The notes under the pieces are model-generated. The model was given only the letters and a program-made list of their open reading frames with translations, did no database searches and was not told the origin of the DNA. Below, one piece after another: positions 3,652 to 23,180 of a stretch of DNA of 23,180 nucleotides (the first letter of the stretch is position 1; each line of letters opens with the position of its first letter). Source of the DNA: a virus; IMG/VR virus record IMGVR_UViG_3300037584_004363, positions 1 through 23,180 of that record, one strand, 5' to 3'. A program made the translations under genes and the position numbers.

Positions 3652-4416
3652 ATGAAACAACTTACAGAAAAGCAAATAGTAGAGAATTGGGGTAAACTTA
3701 TACAGCTGATAGAAGATACATTTGATGGAGATCGAAAAGATAAACTATTGGAAATGTATAAATATTTTGAGGATAGGATGTCAGTAGCACCTGCTAGTGG
3801 TAAGGCGGCTTATCATAATGCTATGATTGGTGGGTATGTAGAGCATGTATTGCATGTTACTGATTGTGCTTTACAAATCAAAAAACTATGGGAGTCCAAT
3901 GGTGCTATGATTAACTTCACCGATGAAGAGTTGGTATTTGCTGCTATGCATCACGACTTAGGTAAGGTAGGAGATCTAACAGAGGATTACTACATACCGC
4001 AAGACTCCGAATGGCATCGTAAGAATAGAGGTGAGATATTTAAACATAATCCAAATCTTCAATATATGACAGTTACCGATAGAGCGATTTTTCTCTTAAA
4101 TCATTTTGGTATTTCAATGTCTCAATGGGAGTATATTGGATTGAAGCTAACCGATGGTATGTATGAGGAAGCTAATAAGTCTTACTATATGTCTTACAAT
4201 CCTGATTGGGGATTGAAGTCTAATATAGCTTACATACTTCATCAAGCAGATATGATGGCTACGCATATTGAGTTTGATGAGTGGCAAAGAGAGGATGAAG
4301 AAGTAAGTAATAATTTTAAAGCCGCAGTTAAACCAAAAACTGAAACTAAACAACCATCACCTAAATTAAGTGCAAAATCTCAAGATTTATTTGATGAGTT
4401 ATTTGGAGATAAGTAA
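3652..4416 (+). CDS. HD-domain metal-dependent phosphohydrolase (YhaM-like HD core)
   Basis: The 254-residue protein carries the HD signature. GGYVEHVLHV at 60-69 supplies H65, HHDLGK at 100-105 supplies the H-D pair, and D200 in HQADMMA is the expected last ligand. The spacing and the 'H-x-x-x-x-G-G-x-x-E-H' block resemble the HD domain of the YhaM 3'-5' exonuclease family, but the OB-fold of YhaM is absent. HD proteins use two metal ions to hydrolyse phosphoester bonds in nucleotides or nucleic acids; the substrate here is unknown. After a Lys/Pro linker (about 227-240) the protein ends in SQDLFDELFGDK, which resembles the C-terminal clamp-binding peptides of T4-type proteins. GGAG at 3640-3643 sits 8 bases before the ATG, and the start follows directly on the glycosyltransferase stop. 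Confidence 0.85.
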   Translation: MKQLTEKQIVENWGKLIQLIEDTFDGDRKDKLLEMYKYFEDRMSVAPASGKAAYHNAMIGGYVEHVLHVTDCALQIKKLWESNGAMINFTDEELVFAAMHHDLGKVGDLTEDYYIPQDSEWHRKNRGEIFKHNPNLQYMTVTDRAIFLLNHFGISMSQWEYIGLKLTDGMYEEANKSYYMSYNPDWGLKSNIAYILHQADMMATHIEFDEWQREDEEVSNNFKAAVKPKTETKQPSPKLSAKSQDLFDELFGDK

Positions 4417-7782: not shown

Positions 7783-8265
7783 ATGGCAAAATCAAATAAA
7801 CTTGCAAATCTAATTAGAGAATTAGTAAAGCAAGAGGTTAAAAAACAGGTAACTGAGATATTTATTAAAGAAGGTGTAAAGTCTATGACTGAAAGTGCGT
7901 CTAAAAATGATGTAATGGAAGTCTTACCTAAAAGAAAACCCAAACCTAAAAAAGAAGTTACCTACACTAAGAATCCTGTATTGAATGATATTCTAAATGA
8001 AACAGCAAATGCAGGTGATAGTGATTTTGAAGAGTATCCTACAATGACTGGTAAACCTTTTGATAGTACGAGAATGGCTGAAGCTATGGGGTATGGTGGT
8101 ATGTTAGGTGATGCTGAAAGTCGTAGAAAACAAGCTGCTATACAAACTGCACAAGCAGTAGGAGCTGATACAAATAATGAAGCAGTTCAGAATGTAATGC
8201 AAGACTTAACAAAAGATTACAGAGGTGTAATGAAAGCATTAGATAAAAAAGATGGAAAAATATAA
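7783..8265 (+). CDS. conserved phage protein of unknown role, upstream of gp25
   Basis: The 160-residue product starts with a basic amphipathic helix (KLANLIRELVKQEVKKQV, about 6-23). It continues through a Lys/Pro linker (about 50-60), then KNPVLNDILNETA (63-75) and a Gly/Met-rich stretch (about 92-112, EAMGYGGMLGD), and ends in helices. As I recall, the 'helix, then N-P-V-L-N-x-x-L-N-E-T' arrangement recurs in environmental T4-like phages next to gp25, with no function assigned. The protein may be an assembly factor or a minor baseplate part. Its stop overlaps the gp25 start (TAATG at 8263-8267), so the two are coupled. AGGAG at 7772-7776 gives a 6-base spacing. Confidence 0.78.
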   Translation: MAKSNKLANLIRELVKQEVKKQVTEIFIKEGVKSMTESASKNDVMEVLPKRKPKPKKEVTYTKNPVLNDILNETANAGDSDFEEYPTMTGKPFDSTRMAEAMGYGGMLGDAESRRKQAAIQTAQAVGADTNNEAVQNVMQDLTKDYRGVMKALDKKDGKI

Positions 8266-8741
8266 TGTCTAACTTAGAAAAAGATTTAAATCCAGATACC
8301 TTTATAGGTATTAGTCTACCATTAGAATATGGTACTAAAGGATTTTTTAATCAAACAAAAACTACTTTACAACAAGCTCAACATAATATAAGAAATCTTT
8401 TACTAACTATAAAAGGTGAAAGGTTGGGGAATCCTACTTTTGGTAGCGATTTGATGAGGGTAATCTTTGAGCCAGAAGATGAGTTTTTAGAATCTAAAAT
8501 AGAAGAGGCTATTAGATCTTCTATGGATGAATGGCTTCCTTACATCAATTTACAAAAAATAAAGGTTGAACCTAGTCTTGTACCGAATAAAGTTGTAGTA
8601 GATTTAAAATTTACAATAAACTTTGATCAAAATGTACAGACTCTTACTATGAGTTTAGGTCCTCAAGCACCATTTAATCAATATGAAAATGAGGATGATG
8701 GGCAAACCACAGGCAATGACGATGCAGGTAGTGGTTATTAA
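8265..8741 (+). CDS. 25: baseplate wedge protein gp25 (GPW_gp25 family)
   Basis: The 158-residue product carries the gp25/GpW lysozyme-like fold signature. It begins with FIGISLPLEYGTKGFF (13-28), then the QAQHNIRNLLLTIKGER helix-turn (37-53) and NPTFGSDLMRVIFEP (56-70). An amphipathic helix (about 76-90) and the final strands follow. GERLGNPTFG at 51-60 corresponds to the conserved 'G-E-R-x-x-x-P-x-F-G' core that holds the gp6-gp7 wedge together in T4. The family usually has 120-140 residues; the extra part here is an acidic tail (about 136-158). It is not expected to be enzymatic. It is translationally coupled to the gene before it and is followed within 12 bases by gp6. Confidence 0.92.
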   Translation: MSNLEKDLNPDTFIGISLPLEYGTKGFFNQTKTTLQQAQHNIRNLLLTIKGERLGNPTFGSDLMRVIFEPEDEFLESKIEEAIRSSMDEWLPYINLQKIKVEPSLVPNKVVVDLKFTINFDQNVQTLTMSLGPQAPFNQYENEDDGQTTGNDDAGSGY

Positions 8742-8752
8742 GGAGAATTAAA

Positions 8753-10789
8753 ATGCCATACAGTCAAAATAAAAAAGCAGTAAAAGAAGTTAGATATTTA
8801 AATAAAGACTTTGCTTCTTTCAAATCCAATCTAATTGAATTTACTAAAATTTATTTTCCAAATACATATAATGACTTTAATGAAGCTTCACCTGGTATGA
8901 TGTTTATTGAAATGGCATCATATGTTGGCGATGTTCTTTCTTACTATGTAGATAATCAGTTTAAAGAATCATTACTGTCTTTTGCTCAAGAAAAAAGAAC
9001 TGTATATAATATGGCTCAAACTTTTGGATACAAACCAAAGTTAGGTGCACCATCTACAGGTATGTTAGATGTATTTCAAACTGTACCTGCAATATCAGAG
9101 GGAACAGGTGAAAATTATACAACTAATCCTGATTTAAGATATGCTATGGAAATAAAATCAGGTATGATACTCAATTCTTCAGCCGGTGTAAACTTTACAA
9201 CTGTAGAAGATTGTAACTTTAAATTTTCATCATCTTATGATCCAATGGAAATTAGCGTATACGAAAGCGCAAATGATGTGCCTGTTACTTACTTACTAAA
9301 AAAATCGGTAAAAATCGAAAGTGGAAATATTGCCACAGAATTCTTTTCATTTGGAAATGCGACAAAATTTGATAGAATAGCCTTATCAAATGAAGTAGTT
9401 ACTGAAATAATAAGCTGCACAGACGATGATGGTAAAGAATGGTATCCCGTAGATTATTTAGCGCAAGATACTGTATTTGAAGATATGGAAAACAATGCAG
9501 ATACCGATCCTGATTTAGCTCAATATGCTGATCAATCGCCATATTTGCTTAAACTATTAAAAACATCAAGAAGATTTACAACATTTATTAGAGAAGATGG
9601 TAAAACAGAATTACGATTTGGAGCTGGGATATCCGATTCACCAGATGAGGAAATCATACCTAACCCAAATAATGTAGGTTCATCCTTACCTGGTTCACCA
9701 AGCTATCTCAATACTGCATTTGATCCTTCTAATTTTCTGAGTACCAAAACTTATGGTCAAGCGCCTTCAAATACCACACTAACAATTCAATACAGATATG
9801 GTGGTGGGGTAGATCATAACGCATTAGCTAATAGTATAACATCTGTTGTGTCGTCAACTGTAAACTTAAATACTTTAGGATTAAATCAAAATTTAGCTAA
9901 TGTTAGCAGAGCTTCACTAGCAGTAACAAATCCTGATTCAACAACGGGTGGTAAGAGTGCGGAAAGTATTACAGAGGTTAAGAACAATACATTAGCTTAC
10001 TTTCAAGCACAGCAAAGAGCGGTTACTAAAGCTGATTATATAACGAGAGTGTATGCTCTACCACCTAAGTATGGTAATGTTGCAAAAGCTTACATAGTAC
10101 AAGATACTCAAATAGATCCTGCAAGTGTAAATCCAAAACCTAAAAAGAAGAAAAAGAAAAGAGCTATGGATGGAAAAGAGGTGATAAATATAGAACCACA
10201 AAAGCCTTCAGTCATACCAAATCCATTGGCTATGAATTTGTATGTATTAGGATTTGATGCCAATAAGAAACTAACTAATCTTAATCAGGCAGTTAAAGAA
10301 AATATACAAACTTACTTAACTCAATTTAGAATGATGACTGATGCTATAAACATTAAAGATGCTTATGTTATAAACATAGGAGTTAAATGTAATATCTTAA
10401 CTAAAGCTGGATACAACAAAGAACAGGTTATTTTACAAGCAACCGAAAAAATTGCAGCATTTTTTGATATTGAAAAGTGGCAAATTGGACAACCAATAGT
10501 TTTAGGAGATATAGCTTATCAGGTTTCTTTAGTAGATGGAGTTTCTGCTGTAGTTGCTCCTGATGATGAGGATGAAGAGTTAGGAAAAAATGAAAAACCG
10601 CCAATTGTTCAGGTTGTAAATAAACATTCTAGAACTGATGGTTATTCTGGTAATTTATATGATATAGTAAGTGCTACAAAAGAAGGAGTGGTTTATCCTT
10701 CTATGGACCCAAGTTGTTTTGAAATGAAATATCCAAACATAGACATAGAAGTTAGAGTCGTAGGTGACTCTACAGGAGGAGCTAGCTAA
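8753..10789 (+). CDS. 6: baseplate wedge protein gp6 (baseplate J-like)
   Basis: The 678-residue product matches T4 gp6 in length class (T4 660) and in its opening block. This includes YLNKDFASFKSNLIEF (15-30), EASPGMMFIEMASYVGDVLS (about 44-63) and YNMAQTFGYKP (about 84-94), the baseplate-J signature. A Pro-rich loop leads to the conserved ring-forming part, with KNNTLAYFQAQQRAVTKADY near 412-431. An unusual Lys run (P463, K464-469, R470) sits in a loop before the C-terminal domain (about 490-605, containing YVLGFDANKKL and IQTYLTQFRMMTDAI). gp6 forms the inner ring of the baseplate and triggers sheath contraction. AGGAG at 8741-8745 is 7 bases before the ATG. The last bases overlap the next gene (TAATG). 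Confidence 0.92.
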   Translation: MPYSQNKKAVKEVRYLNKDFASFKSNLIEFTKIYFPNTYNDFNEASPGMMFIEMASYVGDVLSYYVDNQFKESLLSFAQEKRTVYNMAQTFGYKPKLGAPSTGMLDVFQTVPAISEGTGENYTTNPDLRYAMEIKSGMILNSSAGVNFTTVEDCNFKFSSSYDPMEISVYESANDVPVTYLLKKSVKIESGNIATEFFSFGNATKFDRIALSNEVVTEIISCTDDDGKEWYPVDYLAQDTVFEDMENNADTDPDLAQYADQSPYLLKLLKTSRRFTTFIREDGKTELRFGAGISDSPDEEIIPNPNNVGSSLPGSPSYLNTAFDPSNFLSTKTYGQAPSNTTLTIQYRYGGGVDHNALANSITSVVSSTVNLNTLGLNQNLANVSRASLAVTNPDSTTGGKSAESITEVKNNTLAYFQAQQRAVTKADYITRVYALPPKYGNVAKAYIVQDTQIDPASVNPKPKKKKKKRAMDGKEVINIEPQKPSVIPNPLAMNLYVLGFDANKKLTNLNQAVKENIQTYLTQFRMMTDAINIKDAYVINIGVKCNILTKAGYNKEQVILQATEKIAAFFDIEKWQIGQPIVLGDIAYQVSLVDGVSAVVAPDDEDEELGKNEKPPIVQVVNKHSRTDGYSGNLYDIVSATKEGVVYPSMDPSCFEMKYPNIDIEVRVVGDSTGGAS

Positions 10790-20751: not shown

Positions 20752-21750
20752 ATGTTTAAAAGACTAGACCCACAAGATGTAGATAAGACTCCTTTTAAAG
20801 TATATAAAGAGTTTACTGTCACCAATAATGACAGCGGTAGTGGTGTGTATAATTTTAGAGCCATTAGTGGAAGTCATCGTAATTATATATCTTCAAGTGC
20901 TGATGTAAAACATTATCCATCGGCTTCATTCTATTCATTACCATCTTATTTTATGATAAACAGTAGGTATTACAGACAAACAAAACCTGGTGTTAGAAGA
21001 ACAGTTGTAAATCCTTATAATAATTTTGCATCAAATAATCCCGATCAATACAGAATGTTACATCAATCAGCTTCTATAATTTCAGTAAGTAAAACTATGT
21101 ATGGTGAAAGAATAAAACCAGGTTCTATAAGATTAGAAGATGACAGTACAAATGATACAGTAGTAATAGTTGATGATGCAAAAGGTAATTTATATGATTT
21201 AAGTGTATCTTCTAGTTTTGCCAGATTTGCTAGCCATAGTTTTAGTGATGATTATAAAATAGATGAAACGGGTAGCTTTGCAGGTAATATTTTTTACGAA
21301 GAAGGAGTTTTAGTAATAACAAATACAGGCTCAAAATTTGTAGATGTTGGAACTAAAGTTGGAACTGATGGGTATTCTTTAGAGTATAAGTCTCAAGTCA
21401 CACTAAATGAATATTCATATCTTTGTATAGCTGGAGAAAATGAGTTTAATTCATCTACAAATATATCTACTACATTTCAGAGAAGCGGTAGTATAAATGT
21501 TTCAGGCTCTGATAGTTGGAGATTCTTTCCAGCTGGTGATGCAGCAAACAAATCTGGTTCATACAAACATTCATACGAACAGGCGACGAGATATGCTGCT
21601 TTCACAACACATTCTAAGTTTCAACCTTATATTACCAAAATAGGATTATACAATGATTTTGATGAACTGATTGCTATTGGACAATTATCTGCTCCAATTA
21701 AAAACGAAAAAGAATTAGCTTTAGGTTTCGTAGTGAGGTTTGATGCGTAA
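20752..21750 (+). CDS. virion structural protein, paralogue B
   Basis: The 332-residue product is a diverged relative of the gene before it. Matching blocks appear in the same order: FKVYKEFTVTNN near the start, ISVSKTMYGERIKPGSIRLE (about 110-129), NIFYEEGVLVITNTG (about 179-193), and KIGLYNDFDELIAIGQLSAP (about 297-316), ending GFVVRFDA. An insert of about 30 residues before the last block (around GSDSWRFFPAGDAANKSGS) is absent from paralogue A. The two may form a hetero-oligomer on the tail or have split their host-contact duties. GGGAG at 20738-20742 is 9 bases before the ATG. The stop overlaps the next gene (TAATG at 21748-21752). Confidence 0.75.
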   Translation: MFKRLDPQDVDKTPFKVYKEFTVTNNDSGSGVYNFRAISGSHRNYISSSADVKHYPSASFYSLPSYFMINSRYYRQTKPGVRRTVVNPYNNFASNNPDQYRMLHQSASIISVSKTMYGERIKPGSIRLEDDSTNDTVVIVDDAKGNLYDLSVSSSFARFASHSFSDDYKIDETGSFAGNIFYEEGVLVITNTGSKFVDVGTKVGTDGYSLEYKSQVTLNEYSYLCIAGENEFNSSTNISTTFQRSGSINVSGSDSWRFFPAGDAANKSGSYKHSYEQATRYAAFTTHSKFQPYITKIGLYNDFDELIAIGQLSAPIKNEKELALGFVVRFDA

Positions 21751-22391
21751 TGGGTAAGTTTAAAAAGATGATGGAACATTCTTACTTAATTAATGAAATG
21801 AAAATAAAAGTTCTTTCAGGTCATCTAACTGCTTTAGATAAAAGAGTTGTTAAACAGATGTTGGATAAAAAGATGGAAAGCGGTAATGTGAAAAAGACGG
21901 ATTATTTCATAAAAGATATGGGCGGTGGTAAATATGAAATAACTCAAAGAAAAATGGATGCTGGAATCGGAATAGGTTCGAGAAAAGTTTTGAGACATTA
22001 TAAATCAAAAATACAAGTCAAAGAAGGTTTGGTATCTGAAAGAATAGATTATATGGATACAGCAAAACAAATGGTAAAAAAGTATAATCTGAAATCTAAA
22101 GTAAAGATGGTTTCAGGCAAAAACTATGGTGATTACATTCCTGAAACCGATACAATAACAATAAGACCATCTTATAAATCAGTCAGAGAGTTCTTAATGA
22201 CTGTATTGCATGAAATACAACATGCTTTAGATGCTGATAATTTAGGTAAGAGAAAATTTATAAAGAAATACAATCAAGCTGGTACAATGGCTGCACACGG
22301 TGGATTAGATCCTCATGATGATAATAAGTGGGAAGAGAAAGCAGAAAGATTTGCAGAAAAAGAAATAAAAAAATATTTGAATAATAAATAA
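21750..22391 (+). CDS. HExxH zinc-metallopeptidase-like protein in the tail gene cluster
   Basis: The 213-residue basic product carries HEIQHALD at 154-161, a zincin H-E-x-x-H motif in which H154 and H158 would hold zinc and E155 activate water. A third ligand may be a glutamate in the WEEKAERFAEKE helix (about 190-201), as in gluzincins. The region before the motif (about 127-153, with ETDTITIRPSYKSVREFL) forms the usual strand and helix leading into it. The first 100 residues are basic and variable, beginning MGKFKKMMEHSYLINEM. No signal peptide is seen. It may cut virion proteins during assembly or aid envelope passage. The start overlaps the preceding stop, so it is coupled to the structural operon. 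Enzyme activity is inferred from the motif only. Confidence 0.7.
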   Translation: MGKFKKMMEHSYLINEMKIKVLSGHLTALDKRVVKQMLDKKMESGNVKKTDYFIKDMGGGKYEITQRKMDAGIGIGSRKVLRHYKSKIQVKEGLVSERIDYMDTAKQMVKKYNLKSKVKMVSGKNYGDYIPETDTITIRPSYKSVREFLMTVLHEIQHALDADNLGKRKFIKKYNQAGTMAAHGGLDPHDDNKWEEKAERFAEKEIKKYLNNK

Positions 22392-22563: not shown

Positions 22564-22917
22564 ATGAAAACTTCTTCAGCGAAGGCCAAAGGCCGTAGAC
22601 TACAACAAAAAGTCAGAGACTTACTTTTAGAGACATTCACAGAATTAGAACCTGATGATATCAGAAGCACATCAATGGGTGTATCAGGTGAGGATTTACA
22701 ATTATCACCAGCAGCTCGAAAACTTATACCTTATGCTATCGAATGTAAGAATCAAGAAAAACTAAATGTATGGGATTCGCTAAAACAAGCAGAAGAAAAT
22801 AGTGGTGATTACTCTCCCGTATTGATATTTAAAAGAAACAGAAGTAAAACTTATGCTGTTTTAAACATAGAGAAATTTATAGAATTGATAAATGAAAATA
22901 ATAAATCTTCTAAATAG
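22564..22917 (+). CDS. PD-(D/E)XK phage nuclease, Holliday-junction-resolvase-like
   Basis: The 117-residue product follows a common small phage nuclease pattern: a basic helix (KAKGRRLQQKVRDLLLE, 7-23), DDIRSTSMGVSGEDLQLSP (31-49) and YAIECKNQEKLNVWDSLKQA (57-76). D44, E60 and K62 fit the D...E-x-K catalytic triad of the PD-(D/E)XK fold, and Q75 fits the later Q often seen in the resolvase and VRR-NUC groups. It would cut DNA at branched or specific structures during recombination or packaging. The glutamate usual in the first helix of some resolvases is not evident. No good ribosome-binding site precedes the ATG. Its end overlaps the primase-like gene by 26 bases in another frame, so the two are expected to be expressed together. 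Confidence 0.8.
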   Translation: MKTSSAKAKGRRLQQKVRDLLLETFTELEPDDIRSTSMGVSGEDLQLSPAARKLIPYAIECKNQEKLNVWDSLKQAEENSGDYSPVLIFKRNRSKTYAVLNIEKFIELINENNKSSK

Positions 22918-23180
22918 AGTAATAGGAAATCGTGGTAGGCGATTAAAGAAAGCCGATGAGTATATGTATTGGTCTCCTTTTACTTCACATCATAAACCAA
23001 AACTACAGATTAATATAAAAACTGGCAAATGGCATTGTTGGGTTAGTAATCAAGGTGGACACAATCTCTTTCAATTATTCAAAAAACTAAAAGCCAGTAG
23101 AGAACAATTCACAGAATTAGGTGATATAGTAGGTAAACCCTCTAAATCACTATCATCACAGACTTCCGACAAAAAGCAGA
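22892..23180 (+). CDS. N-terminal part of a primase-like protein with a degenerate zinc ribbon (runs off window)
   Basis: The ATG at 22892 lies within the end of the nuclease gene; the frame stays open to the window edge (96 residues). WSPFTSHHKPKLQINIK (27-43) and KWHCWVSNQGGHNLFQLFKK (46-65) have the layout of the CHC2/T4 gp61 primase zinc ribbon: 'C-P-F-C...H-K-x-K-L-x-x-N...W-x-C-W-x-C-x-x-x-G'. Only C49 remains; S28, T31 and S52 stand where cysteines are expected. The basic N-terminus (VIGNRGRRLKK) and the later segment (FTELGDIVG) fit a linker towards the catalytic TOPRIM part, which is not in the window. A primase makes RNA primers with the replicative helicase. The family call rests on the surrounding residues. 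Confidence 0.65.
   Translation, partial: MKIINLLNRVIGNRGRRLKKADEYMYWSPFTSHHKPKLQINIKTGKWHCWVSNQGGHNLFQLFKKLKASREQFTELGDIVGKPSKSLSSQTSDKKQ

Follow-up and report, generated by a model that had tools for sequence, protein, structure and literature searches.

The window analysed here is an entire viral record of 23,180 bases and, judging from the baseplate wedge subunit matches of two of its genes (8265–10789), is a fragment of a contractile-tail phage. At its end lies the 5′ part of a gene for a phage primase of the DnaG/gp61 type (22892–23179, plus strand), of which the contig end leaves the first 96 of about 312 amino acids. The Pfam model for the CHC2-type ribbon, PF01807, matches this open reading frame with an E-value of 4e-4 and 20.6 bits, under the curated cut-off of 24.9 that is passed, at 28 bits, by G014 (L295), one other record in the search. 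The ‘DNA primase’ profile phrog_2304 matches it with an E-value of 4e-4. The gene directly upstream (22564–22917, plus strand) encodes a PDDEXK_15 or RusA-like resolvase nuclease (PF24608, E=9e-8; phrog_244, E=6e-21) and overlaps the start of the primase gene by 26 bases. Between the genes of the tail region and those of replication is placed a gene for a zincin-like metallopeptidase (21750–22391, plus strand; phrog_87 and a weak match to PF18818), whose HExxH motif reads HEIQH, and an HD-domain phosphohydrolase-like protein (3652–4416, plus strand; phrog_28876, E=4e-10, and a weak match to PF01966) is encoded near the structural genes.

The ribbon of the window primase reads S28-P-F-T31...C49-x-x-S52, all of its codons lying on the plus strand. 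S28 (TCT, 22973–22975) stands in place of zinc ligand 1, T31 (ACT, 22982–22984) in place of ligand 2, where nearly all relatives of the same kind, here called the Ser type, have V, I or T, and S52 (AGT, 23045–23047) in place of ligand 4. The third cysteine, C49 (TGT, 23036–23038), is retained, and its flanks in H48-C49-W50 (23033–23041) align to His64 and Tyr66, through which T4 gp61 touches DNA. W27 (22970–22972) and F73 (23108–23110), the latter in the second helix past the ribbon, occupy two aromatic sites that mark the Ser type. The codons and coordinates given for S28, T31 and S52 in the first-pass annotation match exactly on re-reading, and its statement that three of four cysteines have been replaced while the neighbouring residues are kept is borne out by the sequence, in which HHKPKLQIN, KWHCW and GGHNLF are all found. 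Members of the CHC2 or Cys4 class have Cys or His at the second ligand position and Cys at the other three; the window protein has one of the four and, as judged by its ligands, lies outside this zinc-binding class.

Because the window copy is cut before the TOPRIM domain, its catalytic site is judged through relatives only. The full gene has about 312 codons in relatives that are up to 98% identical over the 96 residues of the window. One of these, L002, itself 98% identical, matches phrog_47 ‘DNA primase’ (E=5e-38), DNAG_N (PF08275, 32 bits against a cut-off of 26) and, weakly, TOPRIM models. The TOPRIM acids are intact in the full-length relatives, E202, D206, D243 and D245 (EG...D and DxD) showing no variation among the 67 Ser-type sequences of alignment A7. 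The earlier assignment to the DnaG/gp61-type primases is thus supported by the profiles, the TOPRIM acids and the fold of the relatives; that the family is not a primase is ruled out by phrog_47, DNAG_N and the matches to PDB structures.

An AlphaFold2 model made from the Ser-only alignment has a mean pLDDT of 91.6 and block means of 92–96 over ribbon residues 21–60, values that show only that the sequence fits the ribbon fold, since AlphaFold2 takes no account of zinc or other metals and could reproduce a familiar ribbon even for an apo protein that does not fold. The order of strands and helices in the Cys-type model is nearly that of the Ser-type model, for which Foldseek finds the Aquifex primase (2au3), T4 gp61 (8dvf_H) and an isolated zinc domain (1d0q). 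VIA-align superposes the Ser-type model on DnaG (5guj) with a Z of 17.9 and an rmsd of 3.3 over 216 residues, and on T4 gp61 with a Z of 14.6 and an rmsd of 9.4 over 272 residues (1–305), a large value attributed, on the model, to domain movement or to poor placement of the two domains. The Cys and Ser ribbons, compared profile to profile, match at 99.9%. A PDB sequence search with the Ser-ribbon profile alone brought up no ribbon; the Cys-ribbon profile led to 1d0q. The suggestion made from the window alone that the fold may persist without zinc is probably right; the ribbon is predicted at a pLDDT of about 95.

Homologues were collected from viral contigs in five scans, of which three used the C-terminal half alone as seed in order not to select homologues on the state of their ribbon, and from bacterial and archaeal genomes in one. 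Among the 272 unique homologues in which the four positions are readable, 153 have CCCC, one has CHCC, still a possible zinc site, 117 have the third Cys only and one has none; not one of the 272 has a mixed ligand set. The full set is found in 154 and the Ser type, S-[V/I/T/A/K/Q]-C-S/T or a derivative, in 118, these being counts of unique sequences that are related and not independent. Within the C-terminally seeded set the Ser type makes up 33 of 175 readable proteins, a fraction not equal to prevalence, as sampling follows similarity to the queries. All but two of the 53 loci obtained with the window protein as query share its Ser/Thr pattern; the two are cut, L046 before the first two sites and L053 after residue 43. 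What had been described as one odd protein is actually one member of a large family that switches three cysteines as a set, so that the pattern stands and its singularity does not. Ser-type primases are carried by a large group of aquatic phages. Sequencing error is ruled out by the presence of the pattern in more than 100 distinct sequences across many contigs, and chance by its being common to so many unique proteins with mixed sets absent. In L057 (3992–4936), the primase of the 484-kb phage LR756508, none of the four ribbon cysteines is left (S, K, D and T stand in their place), and the TOPRIM acids are kept.

Over the first 80 codons of close relatives of the window gene, dN/dS is about 0.03–0.1. 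Every Ser type has Ser at site 28, encoded mostly by TCN and in 25 sequences by AGT; at site 52 two sequences have Thr (ACT) and the others Ser, with codons from both the TCN and the AGY family. Only six or seven sequences depart from V, I or T at site 31, having A, K or Q instead, and a single base change turns no codon for V, I or T into one for Cys. Cys49 is TGT or TGC in 117 of the 118 Ser types. The dN/dS values and the codon patterns at 28, 31, 49 and 52 indicate that the fixed replacements are kept by selection and speak against decay; purifying selection on the Ser-type ribbon is, on this sequence evidence, strong. That a Cys codon has been recoded is ruled out, since Cys49 is TGT and the Ser sites are ordinary TCN or AGY.

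The ribbon of T4 gp61 stacks His64 and Tyr66 on the bases of the template; Arg51 grips the 5′ triphosphate of the primer, and the helicase is bound by a helix-turn-helix that comes after the ribbon (PMC10359460). In an alignment with the Cys-type profile, W-H-C-W-V-C falls on gp61 residues 63–68, which makes H48 and W50 the counterparts of His64 and Tyr66; Ser types keep both positions. An aromatic residue 27 is seen in 32 of 33 Ser-type representatives against 10 of 58 of the Cys type; for residue 73 the counts are 32 of 33 and 11 of 58. This link comprises three independent contrasts, all on well-supported branches, and does not reach significance once relatedness is corrected for. The reading that we favour, and consider reasonably probable, is that the gene encodes an active phage primase of the DnaG/gp61 type in which zinc is not needed for the template-reading ribbon to fold, the absence of the metal being what we infer. 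The zinc site would be replaced by a small packed core made of the hydrophobic residue 31, Cys49 and the aromatic residues 27 and 73, to which Ser28 and Ser52 would contribute hydrogen bonds. Such a ribbon would still read the template and hold the 5′ end of the primer, and the helices past it may, by analogy with T4 gp61, dock on a DnaB-type helicase. A helicase of this type is present in all four of the largest Ser-type records.

The ribbon might still bind zinc or another metal through Cys49 together with H33, H34, H48 and H57. Cys49 (118/119), H33 (119/119) and H48 (118/119) are nearly invariant among Ser types, which leaves room for a weaker metal site. However, four-cysteine relatives keep H33 about as often (143/154), many Ser types have Tyr in place of H34, H57 occurs in only about half of them, H48 aligns to the DNA-contacting His of T4 gp61, L057 lacks even Cys49, and no gain of Cys or His accompanies the loss across all Ser types, so that we regard a site of this kind as unlikely. 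Conserved in both types as H33 is, the pair H33-H34 (22988–22993, plus strand) is probably structural or DNA-contacting, and the proposal of the first-pass annotation that these histidines serve as substitute ligands receives little support.

Loss or reduction of primase activity in a decaying ribbon has a precedent in metazoan Twinkle, the N-terminal domain of which has a DnaG-type ribbon without its cysteines, lost together with primase activity (PMC3610141). Animal Twinkle has lost its catalytic motifs too, whereas Ser-type primases keep the TOPRIM acids; moreover, the strong purifying selection on the domain, a fixed replacement pattern held across two codon families and the failure to find another DnaG or AEP primase in the four largest Ser-type records make decay highly improbable. 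Template recognition could instead be provided in trans by a separate zinc ribbon or partner protein, much as standalone primase-type ribbons accompany the DnaG-like primases of jumbo phage group 2 (PMC7824862). We hold this to be very unlikely as well, for the primase ribbon keeps its own DNA-contact residues, and a search of seven long Ser-type records with the Cys-ribbon profile A9, PF01807 and phrog_2304 found no other, apart from a 27-codon match at chance level in LR756508; the partner on which the primase had been thought perhaps to depend is not seen, as a ribbon, in these seven phages. With the Pfam models tried, the four largest Ser-type records yield no second DnaG gene beyond one weak match inside a 1,066-codon frame of G009, and no AEP primase. 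By deposited status Mel-JY01 is a complete genome and LR756508 one assembled chromosome. Since these searches for another ribbon, DnaG or AEP primase brought up nothing further in these records, the Ser-type protein appears to be the phage’s own primase.

An active primase with a zinc-free ribbon, as we prefer to read it, has several partial counterparts. T4 gp61 (8dvf, 8gao) is alike in size, in its layout of ribbon, helical hairpin and TOPRIM domain, and in the His and aromatic residue at the DNA face of the ribbon, but it has four zinc cysteines where three are replaced here, and overall identity is only about 17–20%. The primase of Flavobacterium phage immuto and other CCCC members of phrog_47 are direct homologues of the same architecture, about 36–55% identical over the full length, but keep all four cysteines and are mostly non-aromatic at 27 and 73. 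Zinc-independent alternative ribosomal proteins have lost most or all of their cysteines and kept their function, the forms that lost them being shared across species (PMC5912738). They are zinc-regulated second copies in bacteria, whereas the Ser-type protein is the phage’s only primase of its type. The same Ser pattern, SPFV...HCWIS, is present in the ‘DNA primase-like protein’ of Microcystis phage Mel-JY01, which is the sole DnaG-type primase found in that complete 190-kb genome, although it is only about 40% identical and its annotation is silent on the missing cysteines. A zinc-less phage primase of this kind was not found described, for Mel-JY01 or otherwise, in a literature search that reached few subscription journals; a phage primase family that switches three ligands as a set and keeps its catalytic residues is undescribed in the papers searched.

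DnaG-type primases are held to need the zinc ribbon in order to recognise start sites, and the work on T7 and T4 rests on a Cys4 site. A natural and selected metal-free ribbon in a phage’s only such primase would, if true, separate the fold from the metal and reveal the real part that zinc plays in template reading. Primases with CCCC and SxCS at about 50–60% identity would provide a clean natural series for the all-at-once loss of a zinc site.

The history of the switch depends on the part of the protein considered. The tree of the C-terminal part only has nine switches (7–9 in bootstraps) and rejects a single Ser clade (AU p=0.0045), while the full-length tree, from which residues 27, 28, 31, 49, 52 and 73 were left out, has seven (5–7 in bootstraps), of which well-supported branches force at least three; here too one clade is rejected (AU p=0.005). 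It follows that either joint changes of the cysteines took place repeatedly or phages swapped N-terminal domains. The trees are unrooted; the presence of Cys in the gp61 and DnaG relatives is the reason for treating it as the ancestral state. The Ser state probably arose from four-cysteine ancestors by all-or-none switches more than once, and phages may have spread the Ser ribbon by exchanging N-terminal domains. As a matter of history only, the Ser ribbon may have arisen a single time and then spread by N-terminal recombination in place of repeated independent loss: the tree of the N-terminal 80 residues has only 3–4 switches, against 7–9 in the C-terminal tree, and does not reject a single Ser clade (AU p=0.24). 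Yet in this tree, too, supported branches keep the two large Ser groups apart, and the full-length tree without the marker residues stands against one clade, which leaves a single origin rather doubtful. We advance tentatively, and at somewhat short of an even chance, the broader proposal that replicative phage primases of a widespread class read the template with a truly metal-free ribbon, reached several times independently by an all-or-none swap of the same three ligands for the same residues, and that replication would thereby be freed from host zinc at this step. Two four-cysteine primases, L102 (5989–6930) and L117 (5986–6939), are nested in a marine Ser-type group of the full-length tree and are candidates for regained cysteines or for exchange of the N-terminal domain.
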